Of a DNA stretch of 64,000 nucleotides, positions 4,308 through 63,517 are shown one piece after another; within the stretch, counting starts at the first letter, position 1, and each line of letters opens with the position of its first letter. Made by a program: the position numbers and the translations under genes. The notes beneath the pieces are model-generated. The model was not told the DNA's origin, did not search any database, and saw nothing but the letters and a program-made list of their open reading frames with translations. Source of the DNA: Solirubrum puertoriconensis (GTDB lineage: Bacteria; Bacteroidota; Bacteroidia; Cytophagales; Hymenobacteraceae); NCBI RefSeq assembly GCF_001483135.1, contig NZ_LNAL01000008.1, positions 868,001-932,000 of the forward strand, written 5' to 3'.

Positions 4308-5006
4308 ATGCTGACCTCCGATCAATTAGCTGCCCGCATCGACCATACCTTGCTGAGGCAGGACTGCACGCACGAGCAAATCCAAAAGCTGTGCGCCGAA
4401 GCCCGCGAGCATGGCTTCGCCAGCGTGTGCGTACCGCCGTACTTTGTGCCGGTTGCGGCCGAGGCATTGCTGGGCTCCAGCGTGGCTGTGTGTACGGTTA
4501 TCGGGTTTCCTTTGGGTTACAGCACCACTGCCATTAAGGTGGCTGAGGCTAACGAGGCTTTGGCCATGGGTGCTATTGAGCTGGATATGGTGATGAACGC
4601 AGCGGCGCTAAAATCGGGCGAGGAGGCAGCCGCGCAGCACGATATCCGGGCACTGGCCGAGCTGTGCCACAGCCACCAAGCCATTCTGAAGGTGATTATT
4701 GAAACGGCGGTGTTGTCGAGTGAGGAAATTCGGCGGGCTTGCGACTTGTGCGCAACGGCTGGTGCGGATTTTGTGAAAACCTCGACGGGCTTTGCCAGCC
4801 GCGGGGCCTCGGTAGAGGATGTACGCCTGATGCGCGACCAACTGCCGAGCAACATCCGTATTAAGGCTGCCGGCGGTATCCGCACGCATGCGCAAGCCGT
4901 GGCGCTGGTGCTGGCCGGTGCCGACCGCCTAGGTGCCTCCGCCGGTGTGGCCTTGCTCACCCCTCCTCAGGACGACAACTCCGCCCATGAAACGTCTGCT
5001 TACTAA
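4308..5006 (+). CDS. deoC: Deoxyribose-phosphate aldolase
   Basis: This class I aldolase splits 2-deoxyribose 5-phosphate into glyceraldehyde 3-phosphate and acetaldehyde in deoxynucleoside breakdown. The 232-aa length is normal. The Schiff-base lysine is in DFVKTSTGF (Lys157). IELDMVMN and IKAAGGIRT carry the other active-site Asp and Lys. The ATG at 4308 is chosen because a TAnnTTTG box lies immediately upstream and the residues before it do not fit the family. Its last 20 bp overlap the next gene, which suggests translational coupling to an unrelated envelope lipoprotein. Confidence 0.95.
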   Translation: MLTSDQLAARIDHTLLRQDCTHEQIQKLCAEAREHGFASVCVPPYFVPVAAEALLGSSVAVCTVIGFPLGYSTTAIKVAEANEALAMGAIELDMVMNAAALKSGEEAAAQHDIRALAELCHSHQAILKVIIETAVLSSEEIRRACDLCATAGADFVKTSTGFASRGASVEDVRLMRDQLPSNIRIKAAGGIRTHAQAVALVLAGADRLGASAGVALLTPPQDDNSAHETSAY

Positions 5007-5559
5007 CGTGCTTTCGATTACCGCTTTGTTTGCGCTGGTTAGCTGTGCCGCTTCGGGGCCGGCCGCCACCACTTCCGCTCCCGATTCTTCGCGTACTACA
5101 TCGGCAACGGCTGTGGGTTCTGCCACCAAAGGCAAGGGCAAAGCTGCGCCGGCTGAGGACCTAAGCAAGTACCGCCCTAAGTTTACGCCGCCGCCCGCAC
5201 CTAAAGCCCTAGGTGCCAAAGCCTACGTAGCGCCTGCCAACCACGTAAACGTGCAAATAGACCAGCGCCTGCGCGACCAAGCCTACACCAACCAGAACGT
5301 GAAATACACCAGCGGTTGGCGCATTTTGGCTTACGTGGGGCTGGAGCGCGACCAAGCCATGGCTATTCGCCGCTCGGTTATCAGCCGCTACCCCGACGAG
5401 ACGGATTACGTCACGTTTAAGCAACCCATTTACCGGCTGTTTATCGGCGACTACACCACCCGCCTCGATGCCGAGCGCGCTATGCTGCGCATTCGCCCAT
5501 TGGCACCCAAGGCCGAGCTGCAGCCCACGCAGGTGCTCATCAACAAAACGCGCTTCTAG
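4987..5559 (+). CDS. SPOR-domain lipoprotein
   Basis: A 190-aa protein with a signal peptide ending in the lipobox LVSC, so the mature protein is lipid-anchored. A low-complexity Ala/Ser/Thr/Lys linker follows. The C-terminal half (about 105-190: GWRILAYVGLERDQAMAIRR, VTFKQPIYRLFIGDYTTRLDAERA) has the SPOR pattern. SPOR domains bind denuded peptidoglycan glycans at division sites, so a cell-wall or division role is inferred. It overlaps the end of deoC by 20 bp and is followed after 2 bp by the next gene, so the three genes form an operon. Confidence 0.8.
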   Translation: MKRLLTNVLSITALFALVSCAASGPAATTSAPDSSRTTSATAVGSATKGKGKAAPAEDLSKYRPKFTPPPAPKALGAKAYVAPANHVNVQIDQRLRDQAYTNQNVKYTSGWRILAYVGLERDQAMAIRRSVISRYPDETDYVTFKQPIYRLFIGDYTTRLDAERAMLRIRPLAPKAELQPTQVLINKTRF

Positions 5560-5561
5560 CT

Positions 5562-5954: not shown

Positions 5955-5998
5955 GCCCTAGGTGCCGGGCTGCAGTAGCAGGGCAGGCAGCTGGGTTG

Positions 5999-6005
5999 TA
6001 CCTTG
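5999..6005 (+). promoter_or_regulatory. Near-consensus -7 box (TACCTTG) of the M20 amidohydrolase gene
   Basis: TACCTTG lacks one T compared with TAnnTTTG and ends 6 nt before the ATG at 6012. It is another case where the transcript would have almost no leader. Confidence 0.35.
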
Positions 6006-6011
6006 CGGGTT

Positions 6012-7202
6012 ATGCAGCAATTGCTTTCTCGCATTCAGGAACTAGCCGCCGCTCAGGCCACCGACGTGGTAGGGCTGCGCCACCATTTGCACGCTCATCC
6101 GGAGCTTTCGTTCAAAGAGTACCAAACGGCCGCGTTCGTAGCCGACGAGCTGCGCAAGCTCGGCCTCGAGCCGCAGCCGATTGCCAATACCGGCCTCGTG
6201 GCCCTTATCGAAGGTCGCAACCCTGGCCGCCGCACCGTGGCCCTGCGCGCCGACATGGACGCGTTGCCCATTCAGGAGCAAAACGATGTGCCATACCGCT
6301 CGCAGAATCCGGGCGTGATGCACGCCTGCGGCCACGACGTGCACACCTCCTCGTTGTTAGGAGTAGCCCGCATTTTGGTGCAACTCCGCGACGAGTTCGA
6401 GGGCACCGTGAAGCTCATGTTTCAGCCCGGCGAGGAGGTAGTGCCCGGCGGGGCATCCATCATGATTAAGGAGGGCGTGCTCGACAACCCTGCGCCGCAG
6501 ACGGTGCTCGGGCAGCACGTGTTTCCGCAACTGCCGGCCGGCAAGGTGGGCATTCACGCGGGGCGCTACATGGCCTCGGCCGACGAGCTGTACCTGACCA
6601 TCCGCGGCAAGGGCGGCCACGGCGCCATGCCCGATCTGAATATCGACACCGTGCTGGTAGCGGCCAACCTGATTGTGGCGGCTCAGCAGCTGGTAAGCCG
6701 CCGCGCCAATCCCAAAATTCCTTCGGTGCTGTCCTTCGGCAAAGTCATTGCCCAAGGCGCCACCAACGTCATTCCGAACGAAGTTTATATCGAAGGCACC
6801 TTCCGCACCATGGATGAACAGTGGCGCGAGCAAGCCCACGGGCACCTGCGCCAGCTTTGCGAAGGGTTGGCCACTTCGATGGGGGCAAGCTGCGAGCTGG
6901 AAATACGCCGCGGCTATCCTTGCCTCGACAACGATGTGACCGTGACACAACGGGTGCGAGCCGCCATGGTCGAATATCTCGGCGAAGAAAATGTCGTTGA
7001 CATTGATCAGTGGATGGCATCCGAAGACTTCGCTTTCTTCTCGCAGGCTGCGCCGTCGTGCTTTTACCGCCTCGGCACCCGCGCCCTCGACGGTCGGTAC
7101 GCCGCTTCCGTACACACGCCTACCTTCGACATCGAAGCCCACGCCCTCACGGTTGGGCCCGGCCTGATGGCCTGGCTTGCCCTGAACGAGCTGCAGGCCT
7201 AG
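6012..7202 (+). CDS. M20 family metallo-amidohydrolase (N-acyl-amino-acid hydrolase type)
   Basis: This 396-aa enzyme resembles N-acyl-L-amino acid / hippurate amidohydrolases, which remove an acyl group from amino acids or small peptides using a metal pair. HLHAHPELSFKEY lies near the start. RADMDALPI and the metal-binding HACGHDVHTSS (His104, Cys106, His108) follow. FQPGEE carries the general-base Glu, GGHGAMP starts the dimerisation domain and MASEDFAFF carries the last metal ligand. The ATG at 6012 is preferred over a TTG at 6003. The TAG stop lies inside a CCTAGGTGCC motif. Substrate is not deducible. Confidence 0.9.
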   Translation: MQQLLSRIQELAAAQATDVVGLRHHLHAHPELSFKEYQTAAFVADELRKLGLEPQPIANTGLVALIEGRNPGRRTVALRADMDALPIQEQNDVPYRSQNPGVMHACGHDVHTSSLLGVARILVQLRDEFEGTVKLMFQPGEEVVPGGASIMIKEGVLDNPAPQTVLGQHVFPQLPAGKVGIHAGRYMASADELYLTIRGKGGHGAMPDLNIDTVLVAANLIVAAQQLVSRRANPKIPSVLSFGKVIAQGATNVIPNEVYIEGTFRTMDEQWREQAHGHLRQLCEGLATSMGASCELEIRRGYPCLDNDVTVTQRVRAAMVEYLGEENVVDIDQWMASEDFAFFSQAAPSCFYRLGTRALDGRYAASVHTPTFDIEAHALTVGPGLMAWLALNELQA

Positions 7203-7238
7203 GTGCCGCAAGGCGTAGTTGCTACGAAGAGCTAACCT

Positions 7239-8018
7239 ATGAGTGTAAAGAAATTACTCTGCATGGCGGGGTTGTTGGTGCTGCCGGGCTTGGCCCTAGG
7301 TCAGCGGCGCATCCACAACCCCACGCAGCTGTGGCCCGAGCTGCAAGGCGAGCTGGCCCTGCAAAACAACTCGTATTTGTGGCTGAGCGCGCAAAATCAG
7401 CGGGCCGCCGAAAGCCGCTACAACAACGGCACCTTCGACTATGTGCTGCGTGCCGGCTACGAACGCTTTTGGAGCGAGCAGTGGAGCTGGGGCATAACCG
7501 GCCGCTACGCCGCCACCTCGGCCGGCGATAGTTTCACGCCCGAACTACTCCTGCGCCACCGCAGCCGCTTGCTGGGGCTTACCCTAGGGCAGCGCCTCAG
7601 CCTGGAGTACGCCTTGCAAGGGGGAGTAGCCCGCAACCTAGGTGCCACGCGCCTGCGCCTCGATGCCGAACGCATTATAACCGTTGGCAATATTGCGCTG
7701 CGGCCGCGCGTGGCTTGGGAAGGCGGCCTCAACCTTCGGTTGCAACCACCCGACGACCAGCCCGAAGAGCGAACTATCGATCAGGGCCGATTGCGAGCAG
7801 AAGTAGGTATCCGTTTGTCCGACCACTTCGACCTAACACCCTACTTCGCACGGCAGACCGATTTCACCGTCACGCAATTTCAGTTCGACGCCGATGGGAA
7901 CATCACTTCGGGCGGTCGTACCAACATCGTTTCGCCCATTATAGGGCTCGATGTTCGCTTTACCTTGTTTCAGGACAAGCAACCTTTCGAACGGATACAG
8001 TTGCCTACACAGCACTAA
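7239..8018 (+). CDS. Outer-membrane beta-barrel protein, DUF2490-like
   Basis: A 259-aa exported protein. The signal peptide ends at LALGQ. The mature part has the alternating aromatic and polar strands of a transmembrane barrel (YLWLSAQNQR, DYVLRAGYERFWSEQWSWG, GLDVRFTLFQ). The order LWPELQGELAL then an RAGYERF strand resembles DUF2490 proteins, which have no known function. It follows the amidohydrolase by 36 bp and may be cotranscribed. Family placement is moderate; an outer-membrane location is likely. Confidence 0.7.
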   Translation: MSVKKLLCMAGLLVLPGLALGQRRIHNPTQLWPELQGELALQNNSYLWLSAQNQRAAESRYNNGTFDYVLRAGYERFWSEQWSWGITGRYAATSAGDSFTPELLLRHRSRLLGLTLGQRLSLEYALQGGVARNLGATRLRLDAERIITVGNIALRPRVAWEGGLNLRLQPPDDQPEERTIDQGRLRAEVGIRLSDHFDLTPYFARQTDFTVTQFQFDADGNITSGGRTNIVSPIIGLDVRFTLFQDKQPFERIQLPTQH

Positions 8019-10404: not shown

Positions 10405-10435
10405 AAAAGCCCCCGCCACCTAGGCGGGGGCTTTT
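10405..10435 (+). terminator. Terminator after htrA
   Basis: AAAAGCCCCCGCC (10405-10417) pairs with GGCGGGGGCTTTT (10423-10435). The 5-nt loop is part of a CCTAGG motif. Confidence 0.9.
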
Positions 10436-18159: not shown

Positions 18160-19701
18160 TCAATGCCGTTCGGGCAGGTTATCTTTGGTGAGTATATCCA
18201 CCAGACCATCTTCGCTTACCACAATGGCCATGCACGGATACGGACTGCTTTCCACGTAGCGAAGAGCTGAGTTGTAGCGGGCACCGCGCGTACTGGAGCC
18301 CCGGCCCGAAGCTTTGCCATCCAGAATAACGCCGATGGAGTAGCAATACGCCTCGGGGTCGATGAGCACAGCGCCATCAATGGCCGTTATCAGCCGCGTG
18401 ATAAGTGGCGTGAGCGGTACGGGTTCGATTAGGGTGCATTGCAGCTTCAAGCGGTCAGCTTCGGCTAGGGCTTCGGTGGTAATTACCACCAAGGTACCCG
18501 ATTGCTGCCGGCTGGCCTCTACGAGTACATCCCACAGGCGCTCTACTTTGGCTGGATCAGTAAGGCCAAACGTTTGGCGCAAGCCCTGCCGAAACTCGGA
18601 ACGGCTAAGGCGGGTTTGCGGCAAGCTTGGCTGCCCGTACGACGAGCGCATGATAACCTGGCCGCCGTGCCGGAACTCCCACACGTAGTGGTGCAGAAAG
18701 CTGATGACGAACAAATCCTCGCGGCTGCTGTCGTAGTTGCCCACGTGCCTACCTAGGGCATACACGTTTTCGCCATCGGAGAGCAGGCTTACGTCGTTGC
18801 TCGTCATCTGCAGCAGCTTGCGCACGGCCCGATAGTCGGAGAGCGGCGTGGGGCAGGTAAGGGCGAAAATCTCCTGCACGTTGGGGTGGCCGCGGCGCGC
18901 GAGCAGCACCTGGCCCACACCTGCCGTGCCCTCGTAACGCAACGACGACACCGTGTTCAGGGTGTTGAACAGCTTGGCGGCGGCGGGGTCCATACCCAGG
19001 GCCTGGGCAGGCGTATCCATCAGCAGCTTACCGGCCGAGCGCACTACTTCGTCGGTATCGCGCGGGCGCAACAGCAGGCCGGCGCCGGGGTCGGGCTCGG
19101 TGAGCGACTTGATGCACTCTTCGTGGAAGCGCCGAACGGCCGCCTCAATCAGCGACGAGGCCAACGGGCGACCATCGGTGTAAAAGCGGTTGGGCTGCAA
19201 CGCCGGGTGCGCCTTCAAAAACTTGCGGCGCACGCGCAGAATCGTAACGACGAAGAACTCCCCAATCAGCACGGGCCAGCCCGCAAACGAGCGCAGCGCC
19301 GAGTTTTTCTTTTCGAGCTCATCCAGCACCTCCTGCACGGCCAGGCGCAGCCCCATTCCCTCGAAGCGCCGCGTCATCATCTCGGTGGTGTAGCCTTCTG
19401 CCAGTGGCATGCTGGCCTCCTTGGCGCGGCGCAAAAACTGGCCGCGGGTCATCACCTCGCTGAACGCCTCGGCAGGCAAGCCGCATTGCTCGGGCTCGAG
19501 GCACACGGCCGGGCCGCCATCGTTCGGGATGCCCAACAGCATTACTTCGGGCTGCAAGTCCTGGTCGAGGTCGTCGAAGATACCATCGGCCATTACCTGC
19601 GCCGCCTGCTGAAAGCGGTGCTGATAGGGCCAGATGCTATATTCTAAAGCAGCAGGCACAATAATAGCCTGCGGCGAAACCACAGTGAGCGGACTAAACA
19701 T
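18160..19701 (-). CDS. Diadenylate-cyclase-like (DisA_N/DAC) protein with large N-terminal sensor region
   Basis: A 513-aa soluble protein. The C-terminal part (about 385-505) resembles the DAC domain that makes c-di-AMP from two ATP, with DGA at 442-444 (AIDGAVLID) and a second motif STRGARYNSA around 475. In known cyclases the second motif reads RHR; here it is Arg-Tyr-Asn, so chemistry may differ. The first 380 residues match no catalytic family I know and resemble the sensor region called DACNV in a family of putative nucleotide-signalling proteins (from memory). Cytosolic location is inferred from the lack of a signal peptide. It is monocistronic. Confidence 0.7.
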   Translation of the reverse strand: MFSPLTVVSPQAIIVPAALEYSIWPYQHRFQQAAQVMADGIFDDLDQDLQPEVMLLGIPNDGGPAVCLEPEQCGLPAEAFSEVMTRGQFLRRAKEASMPLAEGYTTEMMTRRFEGMGLRLAVQEVLDELEKKNSALRSFAGWPVLIGEFFVVTILRVRRKFLKAHPALQPNRFYTDGRPLASSLIEAAVRRFHEECIKSLTEPDPGAGLLLRPRDTDEVVRSAGKLLMDTPAQALGMDPAAAKLFNTLNTVSSLRYEGTAGVGQVLLARRGHPNVQEIFALTCPTPLSDYRAVRKLLQMTSNDVSLLSDGENVYALGRHVGNYDSSREDLFVISFLHHYVWEFRHGGQVIMRSSYGQPSLPQTRLSRSEFRQGLRQTFGLTDPAKVERLWDVLVEASRQQSGTLVVITTEALAEADRLKLQCTLIEPVPLTPLITRLITAIDGAVLIDPEAYCYSIGVILDGKASGRGSSTRGARYNSALRYVESSPYPCMAIVVSEDGLVDILTKDNLPERH

Positions 19702-19783: not shown

Positions 19784-20605
19784 TTACAGCTGAAACACAA
19801 TGGGCAGCACCATCCTTTGCCGAATGGGTTGGCCTTTGTACTTGGCCGGCTCCCATTTGGGCGCCGTTTTGATAAGCCGAATGGCTTCTTCGTCGCAGCC
19901 CGAACCTAGGCGCTTCACGGGCTTGATATTGCTGAGCGTGCCGTCTTTCTCCACGGTAAACTCCATGGTTACCCGGCCCTCCACCTTGCGCTGACGGGCT
20001 TGCGCGGGATACTTCAGGTTTTGCTGCACCCACTCGAAAAAGGCATCGGTGCCGTTCACGGGGCGCGCGGGCTCGTCGGGCGTAATAGTTTCGAAGCCGC
20101 CGTTTGGGGCCGCCGCGCTGGTGGCTGGTGTGGCCTGCGGTTGAGCGGGGGCGCCGGCAGCTTGGGCCGTAGCGCCGGCGCCGGCCGGAATCTGAAACGT
20201 GATGGGCACCGTTACGCGCTGCCGCACCACGCCGCCGCGGTGCTGGGCGGGTTTCCACCTAGGGCCGGCCTTAATTAGGCGCAGGGCTTCGGCATCGCAC
20301 TCGGGCGAAAGGCTTTTGGTAACCTGCCACCCCGAGGTGTAGCCGGTTTTCTCCACCACAAACGTTACCTCGGCGGTGCCCTGTACGCCCGCCTGCAGCG
20401 CCGCCGTGGGGTAAGTAAGCTTATCGCCGAGGTAGCGACCGTAGGCCTCCACGCCACCTAGGGGCTCGGCGGGTTTTTCTACCGCGTCGTAAATGTCGGT
20501 GGGCGAGGCTTTGGGGTACTTTAGCTTTTGCTGAGCCAAGGCCGATGTTGCCGGGGCGGCACCTAGGCAAGCGAGCAGCAAAGCAAGGCGGAGCGTTTGA
20601 ATCAT
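19784..20605 (-). CDS. Exported protein with two TonB C-terminal-like domains
   Basis: A 273-aa protein with a cleavable-looking signal peptide ending at ALAQQ. Two copies of a TonB-C-like domain follow: about 48-133 (YPTAALQAGVQGTAEVTFVVEKTG, RWKPAQHRGGVVRQRVTVPITF) and about 190-272 (YPAQARQRKVEGRVTMEFTVEKDG, KWEPAKYKGQPIRQRMVLPIVF), joined by an Ala/Pro/Gln linker. True TonB has an uncleaved N-terminal anchor that contacts ExbB/ExbD. None is seen here, so it is probably a periplasmic TonB-like binding protein. Confidence 0.8.
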   Translation of the reverse strand: MIQTLRLALLLACLGAAPATSALAQQKLKYPKASPTDIYDAVEKPAEPLGGVEAYGRYLGDKLTYPTAALQAGVQGTAEVTFVVEKTGYTSGWQVTKSLSPECDAEALRLIKAGPRWKPAQHRGGVVRQRVTVPITFQIPAGAGATAQAAGAPAQPQATPATSAAAPNGGFETITPDEPARPVNGTDAFFEWVQQNLKYPAQARQRKVEGRVTMEFTVEKDGTLSNIKPVKRLGSGCDEEAIRLIKTAPKWEPAKYKGQPIRQRMVLPIVFQL

Positions 20606-21148: not shown

Positions 21149-21642
21149 CCGCACCTAGGACGCAAAAACAACAAAACAGGGCCGCCGGAGCGCATCCGGG
21201 GCCCTGTTGCGCATTAACTGCTGGGTACAGCAAATGCAGTGCGACGGTAAAACCAGCCGAAGCAAATGCTCAACCGGCATATAGCCGCGTACCCGTAGCA
21301 AGTACCATATACCCCGTCGCGTGCTGAACGCTGGGCCGCAAGCTCACCTAATTAAACGAACAGAGTGGTGCAGGGCGTGCTGTGATTTATACGGGAATTT
21401 TGCCGGGTAAAACACGTAATATTTCTATTGCAAAGGCCTGTTGTACTACTTGCCAGCGGGGTGCGGCAAGCTCAAAAGGCCTTTCGCTGTGCTACTTGAA
21501 GCCCCAACGCCCTAGGTGCCGGCGGGGTAATTCCGGGCAGGGAGGCATCTGGGTTAAGTGAAAGCGCGGCGTTTGGTAAACCTTTGCCTGTGGCTTGGGC
21601 GTAAGAAATAACGCTCCACCAACGCTATGGAACAACGAAAAC
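21149..21642. other. Non-coding gap with one hairpin and one CCTAGGTGCC motif
   Basis: A terminator-like hairpin lies at 21175-21208 (AACAGGG..CCGGA / TCCGG..CCCTGTT, one bulge). CCTAGGTGCC lies at 21511-21520. AACCTTTG about 55 bp before the next start is a one-mismatch -7 box. Nothing coding is seen on either strand. Confidence 0.5.
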
Positions 21643-23467: not shown

Positions 23468-23745
23468 ACTTTGGTGAGCTAGGGTGATACATGAGCGGCG
23501 GAGAAGAAAAAGAGACCGACACGCACCCCGGCGGAAGAAAGGGCGCTAGTTCAAGAGTAAGATCAAAATTATCTGGTTTACGTGCAAGGGGACTACGTGT
23601 AAATAACCATTTTACTTGTCGCGTTTGCCGCAGCGCGGTCCGTAGTACTGCTGAATCTGCACCGCAAGGCAGCATTTTTCTGGCGGTTGGCGTTAATGTT
23701 GTGTCGCATCTGCCCCAGCCCAAAGTTTATCTTTCCTTGCCTGCC

Positions 23746-24390
23746 ATGACACGTCTTATTCTTGCCGACGACCATGCCGTTATCCGCGACGGCATCAAAG
23801 CCTTACTAGCCGACGTGCCCGATTTTGAGGTAGTGGGGCTGGTAAGCAACGGGCAGGAACTGCTCGACCGCTTGGCCGACACACCCGCCGATATAGTGCT
23901 CATGGACTTGAACATGCCCGTATTGAGCGGCTTCGATACACTGCCCCTGCTGCGCGAGCGTTTTCCGGAGGTGCGGGTGCTCGTGCTGTCGATGCTCGAC
24001 CACGAAAAGTACGTGCACCAAGTGTTGGAGGCCGGGGCTATGGGCTATGTACTCAAAAACGCCGGCAAAGATGAGATTGTGTACGCCATTCGTACCGCAG
24101 CAGCCGGGCGGCAGTTTTTGTGCACCGAGTTGGGCATAGGTTTGTTGCACAAGCTGGTGCAAAACCCCAGCAGCACCCCAGCCGGCAAAAAAGCCACCGA
24201 CCTTTCGAACCGCGAAACCGAGGTGCTGCGCCTGATTGCCGAGGGCATGACCAACGCCGAAATTGCCGACAAGCTGTTTACCAGCAAGCGCACCATCGAA
24301 ACGCACCGGCAAAACATCATCGAGAAAACCAACGCCAAAAACACGGCGGCCCTCATCAAATACGCCATGGAAAACGGCCTGCTTGCCTAA
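23746..24390 (+). CDS. NarL/LuxR-type response regulator
   Basis: A 214-aa two-component regulator. The receiver domain (1-120) has the acidic pair DDH near residue 7, the phosphoacceptor Asp in VLMDLNMP (about 51) and Lys in YVLKNAG (about 103). The LuxR-type DNA-binding helix-turn-helix occupies about 150-212 (LSNRETEVLRLIAEGMTNAEIADKLFTSKRTIETHRQNI). The ATG at 23746 starts the receiver; the frame is open 85 codons upstream but does not look protein-like. TATCTTTC at 23728 is a possible -7 box. The seven-PAS kinase at 28888 is of the matching NarX/HisKA_3 class and is the likely partner. Confidence 0.93.
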   Translation: MTRLILADDHAVIRDGIKALLADVPDFEVVGLVSNGQELLDRLADTPADIVLMDLNMPVLSGFDTLPLLRERFPEVRVLVLSMLDHEKYVHQVLEAGAMGYVLKNAGKDEIVYAIRTAAAGRQFLCTELGIGLLHKLVQNPSSTPAGKKATDLSNRETEVLRLIAEGMTNAEIADKLFTSKRTIETHRQNIIEKTNAKNTAALIKYAMENGLLA

Positions 24391-24411
24391 CGCGCAGCGG
24401 CCCTAGGTGCC

Positions 24412-25728: not shown

Positions 25729-28700
25729 ATGCAACCCGATTCTTCTGGCGGTAACACCCCGCAGGCGCCTGCGCAAGGCACCAACCCACCCGAAGCGCCT
25801 TCGGCCGAACCCATAGCCGAGGAAATGGCCCCGGTGGTATCGGACGACGACGATGCCGACGACGCCGGACCCGACTCGGCGGAGGCAGCGCCTGCCGCCG
25901 GCGTACGGGCGCCCGCCGAAGCGGCCGAGCGTTTTCCGGTGGTAGCCCTAGGTGGCTCGGCCGGCTCTATGGAGGCGCTGGAAGAATTTTTCCGGCACTT
26001 GCCAGCCACTACCGGCGCCGCCTACGTGGTGGTTGTGCACCTAGCCCCCGATGCCGAAAGCCACCTGCCCAGCATTTTGCAGCAGCAAACCCCCATGCCC
26101 GTGCTGGAGGTAGAGGACGGCATGCGCATTCGGCCGAACCACGTGTTCGTGATACCGCCCGCCCACGACATGTGCCTCACGCACGGCGTGTTTGGGCTGC
26201 TCGAGCCCACGCAGCCGCGCGGCCACCGCTTGCCCATCGACCATTTTTTGCAGAGCCTGGCCAAAGATGTGCGCGCCCGCGCCGTGTGCATCATCCTCTC
26301 GGGCATGGGCTCCGATGGCACCATTGGCCTGAAAATGGTGATGGAAAACTTCGGGACGGTGATGGTGCAGTCGCCCGAAACCACCGCCTACGACGCCATG
26401 CCGCGCTCGGCCATTGCCACCGAGTTTGTGGATTACGTGCTGCCGCCCGCGCAGCTGGCCAACCAAGTGGTGGAGTACCTGCAGCAGCCGCTGGTGCGGC
26501 GCCCCCGCCGCGACGAGCCCGTGCCCACGGCCGCCCAGCCCAGCCACGCCCTGCAGAAGATCTTCCTGCTGATTCGCTCGCGCACCGGCCACGATTTTTC
26601 GCTGTACAAGCGCAATACCATTTTTCGGCGCATCGAGCGGCGCATGAACGCGCACCAAATCAGCGAGTTTACGCAGTACGTGCGCTACCTGCAGGACACC
26701 CCCCACGAGGTGGATTTGCTGTTCAAGGAGCTGCTCATTGGCGTTACCAAGTTCTTCCGCGACCACGAAGCCTTTGCCGCCCTGCGCCGGCACCTAGGGC
26801 CCCTGCTGCGCAGCAAAGCCCCCGATAGCACCGTGCGGGTGTGGGCCCCGGGCTGCTCTACCGGCGAAGAGGCCTACTCCTTGGCCATGGTGTTGCAGGA
26901 GTGCCTCGATGAGCTGCCCGAAAAGTACCTCAAGCTGCAGGTATTCGCCACCGACATCAACCCCGAGGCCGTGGAGTATGCCCGGGTAGGGGTGTACCCC
27001 GAAAACATTGTGGCCGATGTGAGCGAGGGGCAACTGCGGCGCTTCTTTCAGAAGCTCGACGGCAGCTACCAAGTACGCAAAGACCTGCGCGACACGGTGA
27101 TTTTTGCCGTGCACGACATCAACAAGGATGCGCCCTTCATCAAGCTCGACTTGCTCTGCTGCCGCAACCTGCTCATTTACTTATCGGCCGAGCTGCAGAA
27201 AAACCTGCTGCCGGTGTTTCACTACGCCCTCAACACCGGGGGGCTGTTGTTTTTAGGTCCTTCGGAAAACCTCACGGGCTTTCAGGATTTGTTTACGCCC
27301 TTGGAGGTGAAGTGGAAGGTTTCGCGCCGCAACGATGTGCCGTATTCCATGGCGCGCATCGTCAACTTTCCGTTCTCGCTTTCGCGCCAAGCGGCGGCCT
27401 CTATCAGCACTACCACCATGAATGCTCCTGCCCGGAAGGAAGGTCCGTTTGCCACGCTTGTCCAAAAAGCGCTGCTGCGCACATTTGCGCCGCCCGCCGT
27501 GGTTATCAATACCAAGGGCGAAATCCTGTTCGTGAACGGGCGCACCGGCAAGTACCTCGAGCCGGCGCCCGGCCTGGGTGCCATGAACGTGTTCGACATG
27601 GCCCGCGAAGAGCTGGGCTTTGAGATTAGCAGCGCCGTGCACCGGGCCAGCACCCAGCGCGAAGACGTGGTGGTGGAAAACGTGCGCCTGAAAACCGACA
27701 ACGGTTACCAGCTGCTGCGCCTCGCCGTGAAGTACCTCGACCAACCCGAGCCGCTGGCCGGGCTGATGCTGGTGGTGTTCGAGGAGGTGGCCCCGCCCCG
27801 CAAGCTGCGCCGCCGCCCCGCCCACCCCGACGACCTAGGCGCCGATACCATGGTGCAGGCCCTCGAGAAAGAGCTGCAATACACCAAGCAGCGCCTGCAA
27901 ACCACCATCGAGGAAATGGAGTCGTCGTTGGAGGAGCTGAAGAGCACCAACGAGGAGCTGCAAAGCACCAACGAAGAGGCCATGACGAACAAGGAAGAAA
28001 TGCAGAGCCTCAACGAGGAGCTGATGACCCTGAACGTGCAGTACCTCAACAAAACGGAGGAGCTGTCGCAGGCGGCCAACGACATGAAAAACTTGCTCGA
28101 TGCCACGGAAATTGCCACCATTTTCCTGAACCACGACCTGGTCATCACCCGCTTCACGCCTTCGGTAAGCCGCATTATTCCGCTGCTGCCCACCGATGTG
28201 GGCCGCCCCATTACGCACTTTGCCCACAACCTACGCCGCGAAACCCTCGCCCAGGACGTGCAGCAGGTGCTCGATCGGCTTACCCCGCTCGATACCTCCA
28301 TCCAAACCCACGGCGGCGAGTGGTTTGCCATGCGCATTATGCCCTACCGCACGCTCGATAACTACATCAGCGGAGCGGTAATCACCTTCACCGACATTAC
28401 CCTGATTAAGCGCATGGAGCAGCGCATGCAAACCAGCGCTGCCTTTGCCGAAAGCATCGTGGAAACTCTGCGCGACCCGCTGCTGGTGCTCGACGACGAG
28501 CTGCACGTGCTGATGGTGAGCCGGCGCTTCGGCGAGGCGTTTCAGGTGGAAAACCACCTCTGCCGCGGCCGCCGCCTCGATGAGCTGCACCAAGGCGCCT
28601 GGCGCATGCCGGGCCTGCAAACTGCCCTAGAGCAACTGCTGCGCACCGGCGAAGGCTTCGACGACTTGCCGCTGGAGGGGCACTTTGCCGGCCTAGGGCC

Positions 28701-28815
28701 CGTGCGCATGCTGCTTTACGGCCGGCGCATTACCAGCAAAGGCGCCGATACCGGCCAGTTGCTGCTGGGTATTAGCGAGCTGCACCTAGGCGCCAGCCAC
28801 ACCAGCCAGGTTTAA
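25729..28815 (+). CDS. CheB-CheR-PAS fusion protein
   Basis: A 1028-aa cytosolic signalling protein. After an acidic low-complexity N-terminus (1-68), a CheB methylesterase domain covers about 70-255 (Ser77 in GGSAGS; VVVHLAPD; SGMGSDG). A CheR methyltransferase covers about 280-540, with its AdoMet-binding VWAPGCSTGEEAYS near 370. A PAS-like region (about 575-680), a long coiled coil (715-800, ELKSTNEELQSTNEEAMTNKEE) and two PAS-like stretches follow (about 805-915 and 920-1015). Relatives often end in a histidine kinase, but this one stops after PAS. The seven-PAS kinase starts 72 bp downstream and may supply that function. Confidence 0.9.
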   Translation: MQPDSSGGNTPQAPAQGTNPPEAPSAEPIAEEMAPVVSDDDDADDAGPDSAEAAPAAGVRAPAEAAERFPVVALGGSAGSMEALEEFFRHLPATTGAAYVVVVHLAPDAESHLPSILQQQTPMPVLEVEDGMRIRPNHVFVIPPAHDMCLTHGVFGLLEPTQPRGHRLPIDHFLQSLAKDVRARAVCIILSGMGSDGTIGLKMVMENFGTVMVQSPETTAYDAMPRSAIATEFVDYVLPPAQLANQVVEYLQQPLVRRPRRDEPVPTAAQPSHALQKIFLLIRSRTGHDFSLYKRNTIFRRIERRMNAHQISEFTQYVRYLQDTPHEVDLLFKELLIGVTKFFRDHEAFAALRRHLGPLLRSKAPDSTVRVWAPGCSTGEEAYSLAMVLQECLDELPEKYLKLQVFATDINPEAVEYARVGVYPENIVADVSEGQLRRFFQKLDGSYQVRKDLRDTVIFAVHDINKDAPFIKLDLLCCRNLLIYLSAELQKNLLPVFHYALNTGGLLFLGPSENLTGFQDLFTPLEVKWKVSRRNDVPYSMARIVNFPFSLSRQAAASISTTTMNAPARKEGPFATLVQKALLRTFAPPAVVINTKGEILFVNGRTGKYLEPAPGLGAMNVFDMAREELGFEISSAVHRASTQREDVVVENVRLKTDNGYQLLRLAVKYLDQPEPLAGLMLVVFEEVAPPRKLRRRPAHPDDLGADTMVQALEKELQYTKQRLQTTIEEMESSLEELKSTNEELQSTNEEAMTNKEEMQSLNEELMTLNVQYLNKTEELSQAANDMKNLLDATEIATIFLNHDLVITRFTPSVSRIIPLLPTDVGRPITHFAHNLRRETLAQDVQQVLDRLTPLDTSIQTHGGEWFAMRIMPYRTLDNYISGAVITFTDITLIKRMEQRMQTSAAFAESIVETLRDPLLVLDDELHVLMVSRRFGEAFQVENHLCRGRRLDELHQGAWRMPGLQTALEQLLRTGEGFDDLPLEGHFAGLGPVRMLLYGRRITSKGADTGQLLLGISELHLGASHTSQV

Positions 28816-28887
28816 TTTGGTATATTATAGTAGCATGGCACGAGGCCGCACTCCGTCCATGGTTTCTTCGATTACTACGCCCATCCG

Positions 28888-39884: not shown

Positions 39885-42032
39885 ATGCGCAAACACGAAC
39901 GCACGCTTCAGTACTTTTTCTTCGGGCAAGACTTCGCCGACGGCCTGCGCGTGGCGCTCAGTATTCTGCTGCCCGGCCTCACATTGGCCCAGCTCGGGCA
40001 CTTCGACCTAGGCCTTACCGTGTCGTTGGGGGCGGTGTGTGCCAGCATCCCCGATGTGCCCGGCCCCATTGCCCACAAGCGCAACGGGCTGCTCGTTTGC
40101 AACCTGCTGGTGTTTGCGGTGGCCTTGCTCACGGGCGTGGCCCGTATGCACGTGCTTGCCCTAGGTGCCGAAATCGTGGCGCTAAGCTTCTTCTTCACGC
40201 TGGTATCGGTGTACGGGGTGCGGGCGGGTGCCATCGGCTCGGCCGGGCTGCTGATCTTGATTTTGACCATGGACCGCGACCTGACGCCCGCGCAGCTGTT
40301 GCAGTACAGCTTGCTGGTGCTGGCCGGTGGCTTGTGGTACACGCTGGTGGCCCTGTTGGCCTACCACGTGCAACCCTACCGCCCCGCGCAGCGAGCCTTG
40401 GGCGAATGCATTCATGCCATTGCCGAGTATTTTAGGCTGAAAGCCGAGTTCTACGACCCCGAAACCAGCCTCGAGAAGGATTACCGCCAGTTGCTGAAGC
40501 AGCAAGTGGTGGTAACCGAAAAGCAGGACGCCGCCCGCGAAATGCTGTTCAAAACCCGCCAGATTGTGCAGGATACCACCGGCTCCGGCCGGCGTTTGGT
40601 GCTCACGTTTGTAGATGCCATGGACCTGTACGAGCAAGTAGTAGCCGCTTACTACGACTACTCCTCGCTGCGCCAACGCTTCAACCACACCGGGGTGCTG
40701 GCCGATGTGGCCCGCCTGATCCGGCGCATGGCCGCCGAGCTCGACCACCTAGGGCTGGCCATCCAAAGCAACCGCCCTTATGCCCACCACACCGACCGCA
40801 CCACCGAGCTGGAGCAGCTAAAAGCCCGCATCGACCGCATTGGCGAGCAAGAGCCCGGCAGCAACTTGGTGCTGCGCAAACTGCTCGTGAACCTGCGCAA
40901 CCTGCACCAGCGCCTCGCCGACATCACCCGTTACGCCGACCCCGAGTACCGGGCCCCGCTGGCACCTAGGGCCGGCGAGTCGGACTACTCGCGGTTTGTG
41001 TCGCGGCAGTCGCTAAGCCCGGCCCTGCTCCGCGACAACCTCACCATCAACTCGGCTACTTTTCGGCACGCGCTGCGCGTAACGGTGGCTGCGCTCGTGA
41101 GCTTTGTGGTGGCCAAGCTGCTGAATTACGGCCACCACGGCTACTGGATTATGCTCACGGCCGTGTACATGCTCAAGCCCGGCTTCAGCCTCACCAAAGA
41201 GCGCAACCTGCAGCGCGTGTCGGGCACCTTGCTGGGCGGGGTGCTCGGCGTGGCTGTTCTGTACCTGGTGCCCAGCGAGGTGCTGCAGTTTGGTTTTTTG
41301 CTGGTGTTTATGATTGTGGCCTACAGCTTTCAGCGGCGCAGCTACATGGTAATGGTGCTGTTTCTGACGCCCTACGTGCTCATCCTGTTCCACTTCCTGG
41401 GTATCCAGTACGTCAGCGCTGCCGAGGAGCGCGTGGTTGACACGCTGATTGGCTGCGCCATTGCGCTTACCACCGGCTACCTGCTGCTGCCGCGCTGGGA
41501 GTCGGAGCAATTGGGCAACTACATGCGCGATGTGCTGCGGGCCAACCGCAACTACCTGCATCGCCTGGCCGATTACCTGGCCGGCGGCAGCCTCAGCGCC
41601 ATGGACTACAAGCTGGCCCGCAAGGAGGTGTACGTTAGCTCCTCCAACTTGGCAGCGGCCTTTCAGCGCATGCTATCAGAGCCCAAGCACAAGCAGCGCC
41701 ACGAGGCCGAGGTGCACCAGTTTGTGGTGCTCAACCTCATCTTATCGTCCAACATTGCCACGCTGGCTTCGGCGGCCCGCTCCAATGCCTTGCCGGCCAT
41801 ACCGCCCGAGGGCCTAAAACCCTTGCGACAATCGTTAACGCTGCTTTCGGAAAGCCTGCGCAAAGTAAGCCCCGACACTCTTTTGCCCGAGCTGCCGCCG
41901 TTGCCCAACTTCCTAGGTACCGAGGTTAAATCGGCCCCAACAGCCGAGGAAAAGCTATTGCTCGAGCAACTGGATTTTGTGCAGAAAGTAAGCGCCGATA
42001 TTCGGAAAGTAACCGATCTGGTAGCCGCCTAG
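39885..42032 (+). CDS. FUSC family membrane protein (YccS/YhfK-like putative efflux transporter)
   Basis: A 715-aa protein with two blocks of membrane segments. The N-terminal block (1-180) includes SILLPGLTLAQLGHFDLGLTVSLGA and LSFFFTLVSVYGVRAGAIG. The second block (about 395-530) has GYWIMLTAVYMLKPGFSLTKERNLQRVSGTLLGG, a hallmark of the FUSC/aromatic-acid-exporter fold. Cytosolic helices link and follow them. The family is linked to efflux of aromatic acids or drugs, but substrate is unknown. The AraC regulator faces it. Its TAG stop is inside a CCTAGGTG motif. Confidence 0.88.
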   Translation: MRKHERTLQYFFFGQDFADGLRVALSILLPGLTLAQLGHFDLGLTVSLGAVCASIPDVPGPIAHKRNGLLVCNLLVFAVALLTGVARMHVLALGAEIVALSFFFTLVSVYGVRAGAIGSAGLLILILTMDRDLTPAQLLQYSLLVLAGGLWYTLVALLAYHVQPYRPAQRALGECIHAIAEYFRLKAEFYDPETSLEKDYRQLLKQQVVVTEKQDAAREMLFKTRQIVQDTTGSGRRLVLTFVDAMDLYEQVVAAYYDYSSLRQRFNHTGVLADVARLIRRMAAELDHLGLAIQSNRPYAHHTDRTTELEQLKARIDRIGEQEPGSNLVLRKLLVNLRNLHQRLADITRYADPEYRAPLAPRAGESDYSRFVSRQSLSPALLRDNLTINSATFRHALRVTVAALVSFVVAKLLNYGHHGYWIMLTAVYMLKPGFSLTKERNLQRVSGTLLGGVLGVAVLYLVPSEVLQFGFLLVFMIVAYSFQRRSYMVMVLFLTPYVLILFHFLGIQYVSAAEERVVDTLIGCAIALTTGYLLLPRWESEQLGNYMRDVLRANRNYLHRLADYLAGGSLSAMDYKLARKEVYVSSSNLAAAFQRMLSEPKHKQRHEAEVHQFVVLNLILSSNIATLASAARSNALPAIPPEGLKPLRQSLTLLSESLRKVSPDTLLPELPPLPNFLGTEVKSAPTAEEKLLLEQLDFVQKVSADIRKVTDLVAA

Positions 42033-42035
42033 GTG

Positions 42036-43279: not shown

Positions 43280-43313
43280 CACAGCCGCAAGCGCCTAGGT
43301 GCTTGCGGCTGTG
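43280..43313. terminator. Hairpin beyond the S9 peptidase
   Basis: CACAGCCGCAAGC (43280-43292) pairs perfectly with GCTTGCGGCTGTG (43301-43313). The 8-nt loop holds CCTAGG. Confidence 0.65.
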
Positions 43314-48289: not shown

Positions 48290-49207
48290 ATGTCCGATTT
48301 CCGCCTTCAAGTGTTTCAGGCAGTGGCCCGCCACCTCAGCTTTACCAAGGCCGCGCAAGAGTTGTTCATCACGCAGCCGGCCGTTACCAAGCACATTCGG
48401 GAGTTGGAGCGGAGTTATGATCAGCGTCTGTTCGAGCGGCGAGGCAACCGCGTTAGCCTTACCGAAGCTGGCCAATTGCTGCTGCGCTATGCTAACCACA
48501 TAAGCGAGCTGCACCACCAACTGGCCGAGCAACTGCATACGCTGCACGATACCACTGCCGGCCGCCTACGCCTCGGGGCTAGCTCCACGCTGGCGCAGTA
48601 CGTTATACCGCCTATTCTGCCGGGGTTTCAGGCCCGTTATCCGCGCGTCGAGCTGACCATGCACATTGGCAACTCCGAGCAGATTGCCGACGCCTTGCTG
48701 CGCGGCCAAATCGACCTAGGCTTTGTGGAGGGCCAGGTTAAAAACCGCGACCTGCACTACGAACTGCTGCTCCACGACGAGCTGGTAGCCGTGCGCTGTG
48801 CTTCGGCCGGCAAAGCGCCTGTTGCGCCGCTCTCTCTCGAAGCGGTGCTGCAACATCCGCTGGTGCTGCGCGAGCGGGGCTCGGGTACGCTCGAAGTGCT
48901 GGAGTTTGCCCTGCGGGCGCAAGGCATTCGGCTGGCACAATGCCGCGCCGCCATTTACCTCGACAATACTGAAGCCATTAAATCCTACCTAGGTGCCGCG
49001 CCCGAATGCATTGGGTTTGTGTCGGTGCGGGCCATCAGTAAAGAGGTAGCTGCAGGGCAGCTTGAGGTTGTGCCCGTGCAGGAGCTGCACCTAGCCCGCC
49101 ATTTCGAGGCCGTGTGGGTTCAGGGGCAGCCGCTAATCAAAGCGGCTCAGCGTTTTCTGAGCTACGCGCACCTCGAGTTCGGTACACCTGTCAATAACTT
49201 TAAGTAA
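48290..49207 (+). CDS. LysR family transcriptional regulator
   Basis: A 305-aa regulator. The winged helix (1-60) reads FRLQVFQAVARHLSFTKAAQELFITQPAVTKHIRELE. The effector domain (about 88-295; GRLRLGASSTLAQYVIPPIL, DLGFVEGQV) has the usual LysR two-lobed fold. It precedes a YeiH-like exporter gene in the same direction, the same pairing as E. coli yeiE and yeiH, so it most likely controls that gene. TGATAA repeats (49212-49217 and 49225-49230) between the two genes could be its site. Confidence 0.93.
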   Translation: MSDFRLQVFQAVARHLSFTKAAQELFITQPAVTKHIRELERSYDQRLFERRGNRVSLTEAGQLLLRYANHISELHHQLAEQLHTLHDTTAGRLRLGASSTLAQYVIPPILPGFQARYPRVELTMHIGNSEQIADALLRGQIDLGFVEGQVKNRDLHYELLLHDELVAVRCASAGKAPVAPLSLEAVLQHPLVLRERGSGTLEVLEFALRAQGIRLAQCRAAIYLDNTEAIKSYLGAAPECIGFVSVRAISKEVAAGQLEVVPVQELHLARHFEAVWVQGQPLIKAAQRFLSYAHLEFGTPVNNFK

Positions 49208-58949: not shown

Positions 58950-59132
58950 AAACGGAAGCGCTGATTCCCGAGCAGAAAACAACGCGCCTTTGCGCTGGGG
59001 TTCAGCGGAGCCGGCAACTGCAGCTGACGCAGCTCGGTGGTTGTTTTTCACCGCTAAGATGGCAATTCCGATTGGGTTGGCTAAGAACGCAGCCGCCACG
59101 AGGCACCTAGGGCGCCCACGCCGCCTACAATC

Positions 59133-59971: not shown

Positions 59972-59998
59972 CAGCGCCGCCCTAGGTGGGCGGCGCTG
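59972..59998 (-). terminator. Terminator of the DUF3108 gene
   Basis: CAGCGCCGCCC (59972-59982) pairs perfectly with GGGCGGCGCTG (59988-59998). The 5-nt loop is part of CCTAGG. Confidence 0.7.
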
Positions 59999-60000
59999 CG

Positions 60001-61122: not shown

Positions 61123-62211
61123 TTAGAGGGTGTCTTCGCCGTCTTCGGGGCCGCTCATGTCAACCGGAATAGCAGCTTCCAGTGCTTCGGGCTCGCCCTT
61201 AGCCATGGCGCGTACTTTGGCTTCGATTTCGTCGGCCAGCTCGGGGTTGTCCTGCAGGATGGTTTTCACACCCTCGCGGCCTTGGCCCAAGCGGTTGCCG
61301 CCGTACGAGAACCACGAGCCCGACTTTTGGATGATGCCCATGTCGGTGGCGAGGTCGAGGATTTCGCCCACTTTCGAGATGCCCTCGCCGTAGATGATGT
61401 CGAACTCAACCACCTTGAAGGGCGGTGCTACTTTGTTCTTCACCACCTTCACCTTGGTGCGGTTACCGGTTACGTTGTCTTTGTCTTCTTTGATCTGGCC
61501 AATGCGGCGGATGTCGAGGCGTACCGAAGCGTAGAACTTCAGGGCGTTACCACCGGTGGTGGTTTCGGGCGAGCCGAACATTACGCCGATCTTTTCGCGC
61601 AGCTGGTTGATGAAGATGCACAAGCAGCCGGTTTTGTTAATAGTACCGGTGAGCTTACGCAGGGCCTGGCTCATCAGGCGGGCGTGCAAGCCCACTTTCG
61701 AGTCGCCCATGTCGCCTTCCAGTTCGCCTTTCGGCACCAGGGCAGCAACGGAGTCGATTACGCAGATGTCGATGGCACCCGACGAAATCAGCTGGTCGGC
61801 GATTTCGAGGGCTTGCTCACCGTTGTCGGGCTGCGAGATGATCAGGTTTTCGGTGTCGATGCCCAGCTTTTGGGCGTAAATGGGGTCGAAGGCGTGCTCG
61901 GCGTCGATGAAGGCCGCAATGCCACCCTTTTTCTGGGCTTCGGCAATAGCGTGCATCGTGAGCGTGGTTTTACCCGACGATTCCGGACCGTAAATCTCAA
62001 CGATACGGCCTTTGGGCAAACCGCCAATACCCAGCGCAATGTCGAGGCCAAGCGAACCGGTGCTGATAGCGGGGATGTCGCCCACTTTGTTGTCGCTCAG
62101 CTTCATCACAGTGCCCTTGCCGTAGGCCTTGTCGAGCTTGTCCATCGTGAGCTGAAGCGCCTTGAGTTTCTCGGCGTTCTGGTTCACCGTTTTGTCAGTG
62201 GTTGCAGCCAT
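61123..62211 (-). CDS. recA: Recombinase RecA
   Basis: A 362-aa strand-exchange ATPase central to homologous recombination and the SOS response. Walker A GPESSGKT is at 75-82. Further hallmarks are [69 protein letters not shown] and the DNA-binding loops. The C-terminus is acidic ([10 protein letters not shown]). No LexA-type box is seen upstream, so SOS control is not evident. It stands alone. Confidence 0.99.
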
Positions 62212-62371
62212 TTGTGCGTGCTTTGTGGAGATATGATGTAGGTTTGATGTCGCTGTTGGGCGATGCCGCCACTTCAGTTACTAAGACTGGGAAAACCCCG
62301 CTAGCGTCCGTTGCAGGCAGCTTTTTCTAACACAGCCGAACCCCGTTTTGTGCCGACTTGGCAATAAATAT

Positions 62372-63517
62372 ATGAGAAAATATTTGCTAAAACTATTAGC
62401 CACTGGGGTTCTGTGTTTTATAAACTTATTAGCATGGGCGCAGCTAGATAACCGAGCGTTTCAGTACCGTATGACTGTACGTGCCGAGCACAATAGTCAG
62501 TTGCGCTTAGCGGTTCAGGCATTTCTTTTCTCCAAGGACAACGAGTATTTCAACAAGATATTCGAAGGCCGCACGTACTACGGCACGCAATTGGCGCCGC
62601 GCTTGGTGTACTACCCAAGTCCGAAGCTGAGGCTCGAGGCCGGCATCTTTCTGTGGAAAGATTATGGCACTCCACGCCTGCGCCAGGTACGGCCATTGTT
62701 TACGGCGTTGTACCAAACGGGCCCGCACCGCTTCTTGTTCGGCAATATCGAAGGCCACCTGAACCACGGCTACATCGAGCCCATCTTCGATTTCGAGCGT
62801 GTGATGCTAAACCGCTTGGAAGAGGGCATTCAGTACCAGCTAAAAACCCACCGCTTCAACGTAGATGCCTGGGTGGACTGGCAACGGCAGCAGTACCGGT
62901 TTAGCAACTTTCAGGAGGAGGTAGCCGGCGGTTTGGTGGCCGATGTAAACGTGGTGCGCGATACCACCGCTGGTTGGTTGGTGCGCGTGCCGCTGCAGTT
63001 TTTGGCTACCCACCGCGGCGGACAAATTGATACCATCGAAAAACCCCTGCAAACCTTGTTTAATGTAGCCAGCGGTTTGCGCGTGCGCAAAGAGCTGGGC
63101 GGTTCGTTTCTGCACAGCCTCTACGCCGATGGCTACGGAGTTTACTTTCACGATTACTCTTTCACGCGTGAGCTGGCCTTCAAGCGTGGCACGGGTTTGT
63201 ACCTCAACCTAGGTGCCGATACCCGTCTGAGCAAAGTGCAGGTAAGCTACTGGCGTGGCAACGGGTTTGTGGCCCCGCAGGGCGGGCCGCTGTACCAGTC
63301 TATTTCTTATACTGTAAACGATGCCGATTACACCGAGCGCAACCGGCAGCTACTGATTCTGCGCTTTTTCAGCGACTACAAGCTTACCGACGGGCTAACG
63401 CTCTCGACGCGCTTCGAACCGTTTTATGACTTTACCAGCCGACAAGTAGAGTTTTCCTTTGGGGCATACATCAACTTCAACCGCGAGTTTTTCATCGCAA
63501 CCCTGCAACGCGATTAG
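62372..63517 (+). CDS. Outer-membrane beta-barrel protein, hypothetical
   Basis: A 381-aa protein with a signal peptide (LLKLLATGVLCFINLLAWAQ). The mature part is rich in amphipathic strands ending in aromatic residues (YRMTVRAEHNSQLRLAVQAFLF, LRLEAGIFLWKDYG, YGVYFHDYSF, GLYLNLGADTRLSKVQVSYW), and ends in LQRD. It is predicted to be a transmembrane barrel, but no family is recognised. The ATG at 62372 is preferred over 62348. Its stop overlaps that of the convergent GNAT gene by 4 bp. Confidence 0.7.
   Translation: MRKYLLKLLATGVLCFINLLAWAQLDNRAFQYRMTVRAEHNSQLRLAVQAFLFSKDNEYFNKIFEGRTYYGTQLAPRLVYYPSPKLRLEAGIFLWKDYGTPRLRQVRPLFTALYQTGPHRFLFGNIEGHLNHGYIEPIFDFERVMLNRLEEGIQYQLKTHRFNVDAWVDWQRQQYRFSNFQEEVAGGLVADVNVVRDTTAGWLVRVPLQFLATHRGGQIDTIEKPLQTLFNVASGLRVRKELGGSFLHSLYADGYGVYFHDYSFTRELAFKRGTGLYLNLGADTRLSKVQVSYWRGNGFVAPQGGPLYQSISYTVNDADYTERNRQLLILRFFSDYKLTDGLTLSTRFEPFYDFTSRQVEFSFGAYINFNREFFIATLQRD

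Follow-up and report, generated by a model that had tools for sequence, protein, structure and literature searches.

ACCTAGGS, an iterated word of Solirubrum puertoriconensis and two sister species, and its counterparts in other Hymenobacter lineages

We analyzed a 64,000-nucleotide stretch of the genome of Solirubrum puertoriconensis (contig NZ_LNAL01000008.1, positions 868,001 to 932,000), hereafter the window, which had been predicted from its letters to contain a dispersed and strongly over-represented 10-mer, CCTAGGTGCC. The window holds 16 exact copies of this word (12 forward and 4 reverse), just as the original prediction had counted. Dinucleotide shuffles of the window contain 0.15 copies on average (the earlier estimate was about 0.2), and none of 100 shuffles reached 16. 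The related words CCTAGGTG/CACCTAGG occur 41 times, against 1.75 in dinucleotide shuffles, and CCTAGG occurs 86 times, against 13.3. The excess of these two words had been predicted, with counts that were too low (about 39 and about 75) and expectations of about 2.5 and about 20. Under both maximal-order and second-order Markov models, no other 6-mer in the window stands out as strongly as CCTAGG. Across the entire 4.80 Mb genome (G000), there are 312 + 255 = 567 copies of CCTAGGTGCC; as a control, the same letters in reverse order occur 0 + 0 times.

A shorter unit, ACCTAGGS (SCCTAGGT on the opposite strand), underlies CCTAGGTGCC, which is its most frequent variant. Among the 86 CCTAGG sites in the window, 72 are ACCTAGGS, with 31 on one strand and 41 on the other. 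We also sampled 39 stretches of 20 kb: 19 from G000 and 20 from G005, which is one of two sister species that carry the word (the other is G006). In the G005 sample, 469 of 561 CCTAGG sites are ACCTAGGS, and just 15 are the palindrome ACCTAGGT. The bases before and after these 561 cores are A and G (292 sites), A and C (177), A and A (29), C and C (24), A and T (15), G and C (14), or others (10). Because most sites have one A/T and one S as flanks, the unit is an asymmetric 8-mer. Outside of it, G is weakly preferred on both sides. We rejected an origin from mobile repeats or REP-like (repetitive extragenic palindromic) elements, since conservation around the sites in G005 extends no further than about 3 bases. 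An Rfam search of the window gave zero matches.

We counted ACCTAGGS in 204 genomes of the family, including eight of the same genus. The three carriers G000, G005, and G006 have 4,831, 4,682, and 4,558 copies, or about 1 per kb, versus 25–67 copies in the other five genomes of the genus. The word is therefore specific to a clade. Only 8 of the 204 genomes have more than 1,000 copies: the three carriers, G125 (4,541), G140 (4,613), G076 (2,241), G158 (2,227), and G070 (1,824). The remaining 196 have 16 to 581.

ACCTAGGS (dialect A) is a clade-specific dialect, and other Hymenobacter lineages mostly have one word per clade as well. We searched for such words against a null model that preserves codon use, with 20–64 kb from each numbered genome and 7–23 kb from each of 74 named loci, which were found with the window's CheB-CheR-PAS protein; 14 of the 74 loci were assigned a word, by our own judgement. 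We took enriched words that were near-exclusively intergenic, such as AAAAGCCC (L046 and L070) and CCTAAACG (L053), to be terminator or repeat sequence and left them out. No dialect was assigned to L041, which has a weak excess of CCTAGG, or to L028 and L036, which have weak excesses of the CTACCCC type. The word is ACCTAGGT in G070, G076, and G158; CCCTAGGG in G109 and Hymenobacter polaris; CCTAGG with mixed flanks in G125, G140, and H. setariae; GGCTAGCC in G032 and Hymenobacter sp. CA2-7 and BT559; CTACCCC in G083, H. ginkgonis, sp. UV11, H. sediminis, sp. HSC-4F20, and an uncultured one (L033); CCCTACC, which may be a variant of CTACCCC, in G060 and H. citatus; GGGGCCCC in H. nivis and H. 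coccineus; and CTAGGCCA in G080, G172, G082, G164, H. wooponensis, and H. fodinae. In G164, CTAGGCCA is weak in the first 20 kb (z = 6) and clear across 20 stretches (z = 46). It overlaps palindromes such as TAGGCCTA, which are likewise enriched. Every dialect word except GGGGCCCC contains CTA/TAG.

In a tree built on SecA from 30 genomes, every word that was seen repeatedly forms a clade, except for CTAGGCCA, which is found within one unresolved six-genome clade that includes two word-free genomes. At this sample size, we saw no word in 14 of the 30 genomes. As a separate observation, the loci from H. nivis and H. coccineus (L048 and L058), with the GGGGCCCC-type word, have about 4.8 GGGCCCC per kb, which is far above any other dialect.

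The word had been predicted to lie in genes and gaps alike. It is present in both and is denser between genes: in the sampled stretches of G000 and G005, there are 2.50 and 2.81 CCTAGG per kb of intergenic DNA, versus 1.13 and 1.12 per kb of genes, or 2.2–2.5 times as many (gene calls are from a simple codon-usage caller, so the borders are approximate). Relative to a synonymous-codon shuffle of each gene, ACCTAGGS is 21-fold (G000) or 23-fold (G005) in excess within genes; relative to a dinucleotide shuffle, it is 30-fold or 36-fold in excess between genes. Two stretches that are poor in the word (L089 and L110, see below) were excluded from the shuffle, codon-context, spacing, and dispersion statistics.

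Within genes, ACCTAGGS acts as an attractor, which fills most of the positions that synonymous codons allow. As predicted, most of the fully coding CCTAGG sites encode Leu-Gly in the frame C-CTA-GGN (363/399 in the G000 sample and 313/344 in the G005 sample), and 202 of the 363 in G000 are CTA-GGT; 28 further sites straddle gene borders. CTA takes 75–87% of the Leu codons where the word is permitted, versus 6–13% after a codon that does not end in C (G000 and G005). Specifically, CTA is the Leu codon in 106/142 (G005) and 109/126 (G000) of AC-Leu-GGS contexts and in 150/176 and 171/205 of SC-Leu-GGT contexts. In word-free genomes of the genus, CTA is used in just 1/23 and 0/3 of these contexts. 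Leu codons besides CTA and CTG make up 16/142 and 13/176 of the two contexts in G005 and 12/126 and 13/205 in G000, versus 176/405 and 236/479 of the non-C contexts in G005 and G000. Since all of the other Leu codons shrink, and not CTG alone, a single type of substitution does not seem to be the cause. The carriers G000 and G005 have 205 and 176 SC-Leu-GGT contexts. The word-free genomes, with a sample about one third the size, have 3. Leu-Gly dipeptides occur at 1.04–1.06 times expectation in the carriers and at 0.82 in the word-free genomes. The related sequence ACCTGGGS is depleted in genes, to 0.23–0.47 of expectation.

To examine conservation, we aligned 54–57 kb of the window to G005 (90% identity) and G006 (89% identity). 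The CCTAGG core is retained at 59/77 aligned sites in G005 and 46/70 in G006. For comparison, retention across all 6-mers is 58% and 54%, and retention of other NCTAGN words is 37% and 21%. Among frequent 6-mers, CCTAGG ranks 72nd of 452 in G005 and 150th of 387 in G006, which is not among the very best. Considering only sites that are aligned in both sisters and leaving aside three gene-edge sites, both sisters retain the core at 14/17 intergenic sites and at just 18/42 coding sites. Coding copies therefore turn over, while the totals stay level across the three carriers. The flanks of the core often swap C and G, and coding sites that differ in a sister often have CCTGGG or CCCAGG there instead.

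The spacing of the sites is near random: the coefficient of variation of the gaps is 0.93–0.96, versus 1.01–1.02 in simulations, and gaps of under 20 bases are rarer than simulated. We rejected strict regular spacing, as this effect is just weak. The variance/mean ratio of the counts per 20 kb is 0.39 for G005 (19 of 20 stretches) and 0.95 for G000 (18 of 19 stretches). Two of the 39 stretches are cold, with 7 and 4 cores, versus 18–40 in the other 37, and both carry accessory-type genes. The first (L089:1-20000) has a peptide-export cluster with a C39-peptidase ABC exporter and an MvdD-like ATP-grasp gene; the second (L110:1-20000) has resolvase, HSDR_N, DUF5131, and RHS/LRR genes. Two stretches that are rich in ATP-synthase, ribosomal-protein/translation, and rpoB-like genes (these names were recognized by eye) have 18 cores each, versus a mean of 27.7.

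The prediction also placed the motif on stop codons and in hairpins, and both kinds of site are present (Table 1). The hairpins are a minor part of the pattern: in 904 kb from the three carriers, intergenic hairpins with stems of at least 7 contain just 20 of 1,224 motif sites. Terminator-like hairpins have the motif at their center in 14/131 cases in the same 904 kb, versus 0/16 in 140 kb of word-free relatives.

Table 1. Copies of the word and associated features in the window, with the state of each core in the two sister species
Feature	Position	Strand	Context and conservation
86 CCTAGG cores, of which 72 are ACCTAGGS in either orientation	3468-63811		Both genic and intergenic, at 1.34 per kb; the first is 3468-3473 and the last 63806-63811
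CCTAGGTGCC	4928-4937	+	Genic; core retained in G005 and G006
CCTAGGTGCC	5208-5217	+	Genic; core retained in G005 and G006
CCTAGGTGCC	5957-5966	+	Intergenic; core retained in G005 and G006
CCTAGGTGCC	7198-7207	+	TAG terminates called gene 6012-7202; core retained in G005 and G006
CCTAGGTGCC	7637-7646	+	Genic; core retained in G006, absent from G005
CCTAGG at center of T-tailed (terminator-like) hairpin 10405-10435	10419-10424		Core retained in G005 and G006
CCTAGGTGCC	20558-20567	-	Genic; core retained in G005, absent from G006
CCTAGGTGCC	21511-21520	+	Intergenic; core retained in G005 and G006
CCTAGGTGCC	24402-24411	+	Starts 12 bases past the end of called gene 23701-24390; core retained in G005, G006 unaligned
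CCTAGGTGCC	26789-26798	-	Inside the CheB-CheR-PAS gene; core retained in G005, G006 unaligned
CCTAGGTGCC	33609-33618	+	Genic; core retained in G005 and G006
CCTAGGTGCC	36306-36315	+	Genic; core retained in G005, absent from G006
CCTAGGTGCC	40160-40169	+	Genic; CGCTGGGG in G005, CCCTGGGG in G006
CCTAGGTGCC	40961-40970	-	Genic; core retained in G005 and G006
CCTAGGTG	42028-42035	+	TAG terminates called gene 39885-42032; core retained in G005 and G006
CCTAGGTG at center of intergenic hairpin	43294-43301	+	
CCTAGGTGCC	48988-48997	+	Genic; core retained in G005 and G006
CCTAGGTGCC	59102-59111	-	Intergenic; core retained in G005 and G006
CCTAGGTG at center of intergenic hairpin	59981-59988	+	
CCTAGGTGCC	63208-63217	+	Genic; core retained in G005, G006 unaligned

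To our knowledge, iterated genome words this strong have been described mainly for DNA uptake by type IV pili and for the highly iterated palindrome HIP1. Our best reading is that ACCTAGGS is one dialect of a genome-wide system of iterated words in Hymenobacter. An iterated word is a known kind of element; the setting, the CTA-based set of dialects, and the lack of a shared methyltransferase among the five families searched set this one apart. We tentatively suggest that ACCTAGGS is read during the uptake and/or recombination of self DNA, which would be a role like that of the DNA uptake sequences (DUS), with a receptor distinct from the type IV pilus/ComP system. A putative sequence-specific DNA-reading protein would favor DNA that bears the word, and copies of the word would then spread and persist via molecular drive or selection. 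More speculatively, at least seven CTA/TAG-based words might be clade watermarks that are read by an undescribed receptor, distinct from both type IV pilins and the common DNA methyltransferases, and might represent a dialect-switching form of self-DNA recognition in the Bacteroidota that has been lost in some.

A DNA-uptake signal was among the predicted meanings and fits the distribution of the word best. The Neisseriaceae reportedly have DUS dialects with 943–5,918 copies, which follow the phylogeny and share CTG (PMC3630211). Similarly, the eight richest of the 204 genomes have 1,824–4,831 copies of ACCTAGGS, at about 1 per kb for the carriers; the dialects belong to clades and all but one share a trinucleotide; and some genomes of the family have none. 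The use of permissive and intergenic sites is also reminiscent of DUS and of the uptake signal sequences (USS) of the Pasteurellaceae, and the low counts in the two cold stretches and at the nine methyltransferase loci measured may reflect a scarcity in acquired DNA like that of DUS (PMC3630211, PMC2397512). Further points in favor are the free orientation, the filling of eligible Leu codons, and the persistence of most intergenic copies. On the other hand, ACCTAGGS is shorter (8 bp, versus 10–12 bp), its core is near-palindromic, and the dialects share CTA/TAG rather than CTG.

Several observations weigh against a role in uptake or recombination. First, none of the 29 genomes searched has the type II/IV secretion and pilus ATPase family (T2SSE/PilB/PilT, PF00437) above the cut-off; G060 has one sub-threshold match. 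The known DUS/USS machinery, as in Neisseria or Haemophilus, was thus not found. Second, ComEC is present in 29/29 genomes, and because these include all of the word-free genomes that we searched, it fails to discriminate. Third, the three carriers are a patchwork of local phylogenies, which resembles recombination, but trios of word-free genomes are mosaic too (heterogeneity chi-square per degree of freedom of 1.36–2.37, versus 2.49–2.54), so we did not use the mosaic as evidence. Fourth, the coding copies turn over faster than DUS, whose exact conservation over six genomes is reported to be 71% (PMC2397512). Fifth, the palindromic dialects (ACCTAGGT, CCCTAGGG, GGCTAGCC, and GGGGCCCC) are typical of highly iterated palindromes (HIP) and not of DUS. 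Finally, in the open-licence literature we found no paper on the transformation of a Hymenobacter, which is weak evidence.

Another member of the Bacteroidota, Riemerella anatipestifer, reportedly transforms via ComEC, DprA, ComF, and RecA, along with proteins that lack known homologs in transformation (PMC8459023). R. columbina reportedly prefers its own DNA; in the excerpted part of a table in PMC7965970, its frequent k-mers are A/T-rich, and the authors leave their role open. The open-licence literature yielded nothing on overrepresented DNA uptake sequences in the Bacteroidetes, nor on a methylome or CTAG in Hymenobacter (again, weak evidence); among the papers listed by a broader search, the only one to name Hymenobacter concerns LexA in the Bacteroidetes. 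The word of the carriers is nearly absent from five genomes of their genus and is replaced by other words elsewhere, so it switches between close relatives. With relatives that have the word and relatives that lack it, the search for a reader becomes a direct comparison of gene content, and it may expose how Bacteroidota recognize their own DNA.

It is rather unlikely, in our view, that the word is instead made and kept by a process of DNA modification or mismatch repair, as in Elhai's model for HIP1, with the alternate words of the relatives due to another enzyme. This explanation does account for a good deal: the density of about 1 per kb, the palindromic CCTAGG core, the palindromic dialects, and the sporadic alternate words of relatives are all reported for HIP1 (GCGATCGC) of the cyanobacteria, whose role is still argued (PMC4390886). 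In contrast to HIP, ACCTAGGS has a CTAG-type core, is asymmetric, and is denser between genes. No paper about Hymenobacter appeared, by title, in the open-licence literature on highly iterated palindromes.

We ranked uptake or recombination above a HIP-like process because the HIP model needs a methyltransferase, and our search of five DNA-methyltransferase families found none with matches above the cut-offs in all three carriers. (We searched for PF01555 in 30 genomes, for PF00145 in 20, and for PF02384, PF02086, and PF07669 in 16 each.) This also disfavors the predicted methylation site. G000 has one match to PF01555 over the cut-off and none to the other four families. G005 has one match to PF02384 over the cut-off and one to PF07669 below it, with zero for the other three families. 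The nine methyltransferase loci of the three carriers, two of which overlap, have 0–0.28 cores per kb, versus 1.5–2.3 at the comEC loci. Another reason for the ranking is the occurrence of non-palindromic words, which make up four classes (A, C, E, and G) out of nine, although class C overlaps palindromic words.

PF07669 offers the HIP-like process some support, as 7 of the 8 word-bearing genomes searched outside dialect A have it above the cut-off (G125, G140, G070, G076, G158, G109, and G032, but not G083). Also, the PF07669/PF02384 locus of G070 is motif-rich, with 1.3–1.4 cores per kb, and its clade might therefore have a resident enzyme. However, PF07669 does not track the word: it is found in 3/5 word-free genomes of the genus, whereas G000 and G005 both lack a match above the cut-off. 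Methyltransferase families are frequent outside dialect A, in word-bearing and word-free genomes alike (PF02384 in 14/16 genomes, and PF07669 over the cut-off in 11/16). We also considered a Vsr-type repair protein as the reader and rejected it. Vsr matches were found in 6 of 29 genomes (G001, G006, G063, G070, G098, and G172), but in neither G000 nor G005, and do not track the word. As an aside, the sole methyltransferase match of G000 among the five families lies in a 3.7-kb locus (L145) with 0.27 cores per kb, as if it were recently acquired.

Another of the predicted meanings was a Chi-like recombination signal, which would be read by AddAB or RecBCD. Like Chi, ACCTAGGS is short, over-represented, and asymmetric, and it is sparse in the two island-like stretches. 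But we found no polarity relative to replication of the Chi or KOPS kind, for which the prediction had proposed a test: the two orientations occur in a ratio of 272:258 in the 20 stretches from G005, and the best two-arm leading fraction is 0.54 (p = 0.44). For CTAGGCCA in G164, the orientations are 108:112 and the leading fraction is also 0.54 (p = 0.84). DUS are free in orientation too. Moreover, the word is on or off between close species and is near-absent from five of the eight genomes of the genus, which is unexpected for core repair machinery. We consider a Chi-like signal to be improbable. The same can be said of a binding site for an abundant nucleoid or chromosome-organizing protein whose specificity changed between clades. 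The under-dispersed counts in G005 and the shortage of gaps under 20 bases would fit such a protein, but the counts in G000 are not under-dispersed.

It is more doubtful still that a context-dependent mutation bias, such as C-to-T changes that turn CCCAGG/CCTGGG into CCTAGG, produced the word without any reader. The differing alleles in the sisters, which are often CCTGGG or CCCAGG, and the depletion of ACCTGGGS in genes are as this would predict. However, the displaced Leu codons include ones that would take transversions or two changes, Gly shifts toward GGT in SC-Leu-GGT contexts, and the flanks are specified to 8 bp. Finally, a codon-pair or dipeptide bias, which the original prediction had listed and which the preponderance of Leu-Gly sites might suggest, is refuted by the greater density and excess between genes and by the excess over synonymous-codon shuffles, and Leu-Gly dipeptides are barely enriched.

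Three other features of the window stand apart from the word. GATC is strongly depleted across positions 1-64000, with 68 sites versus about 233 expected from base composition. On the reverse strand, a gene at 18160-19683 encodes DACNG and DACNH sensor domains with a DisA-type nucleotide-binding domain. On the forward strand, 25729-32403 encodes the CheB-CheR-PAS fusion and, after it, a multi-PAS histidine kinase.

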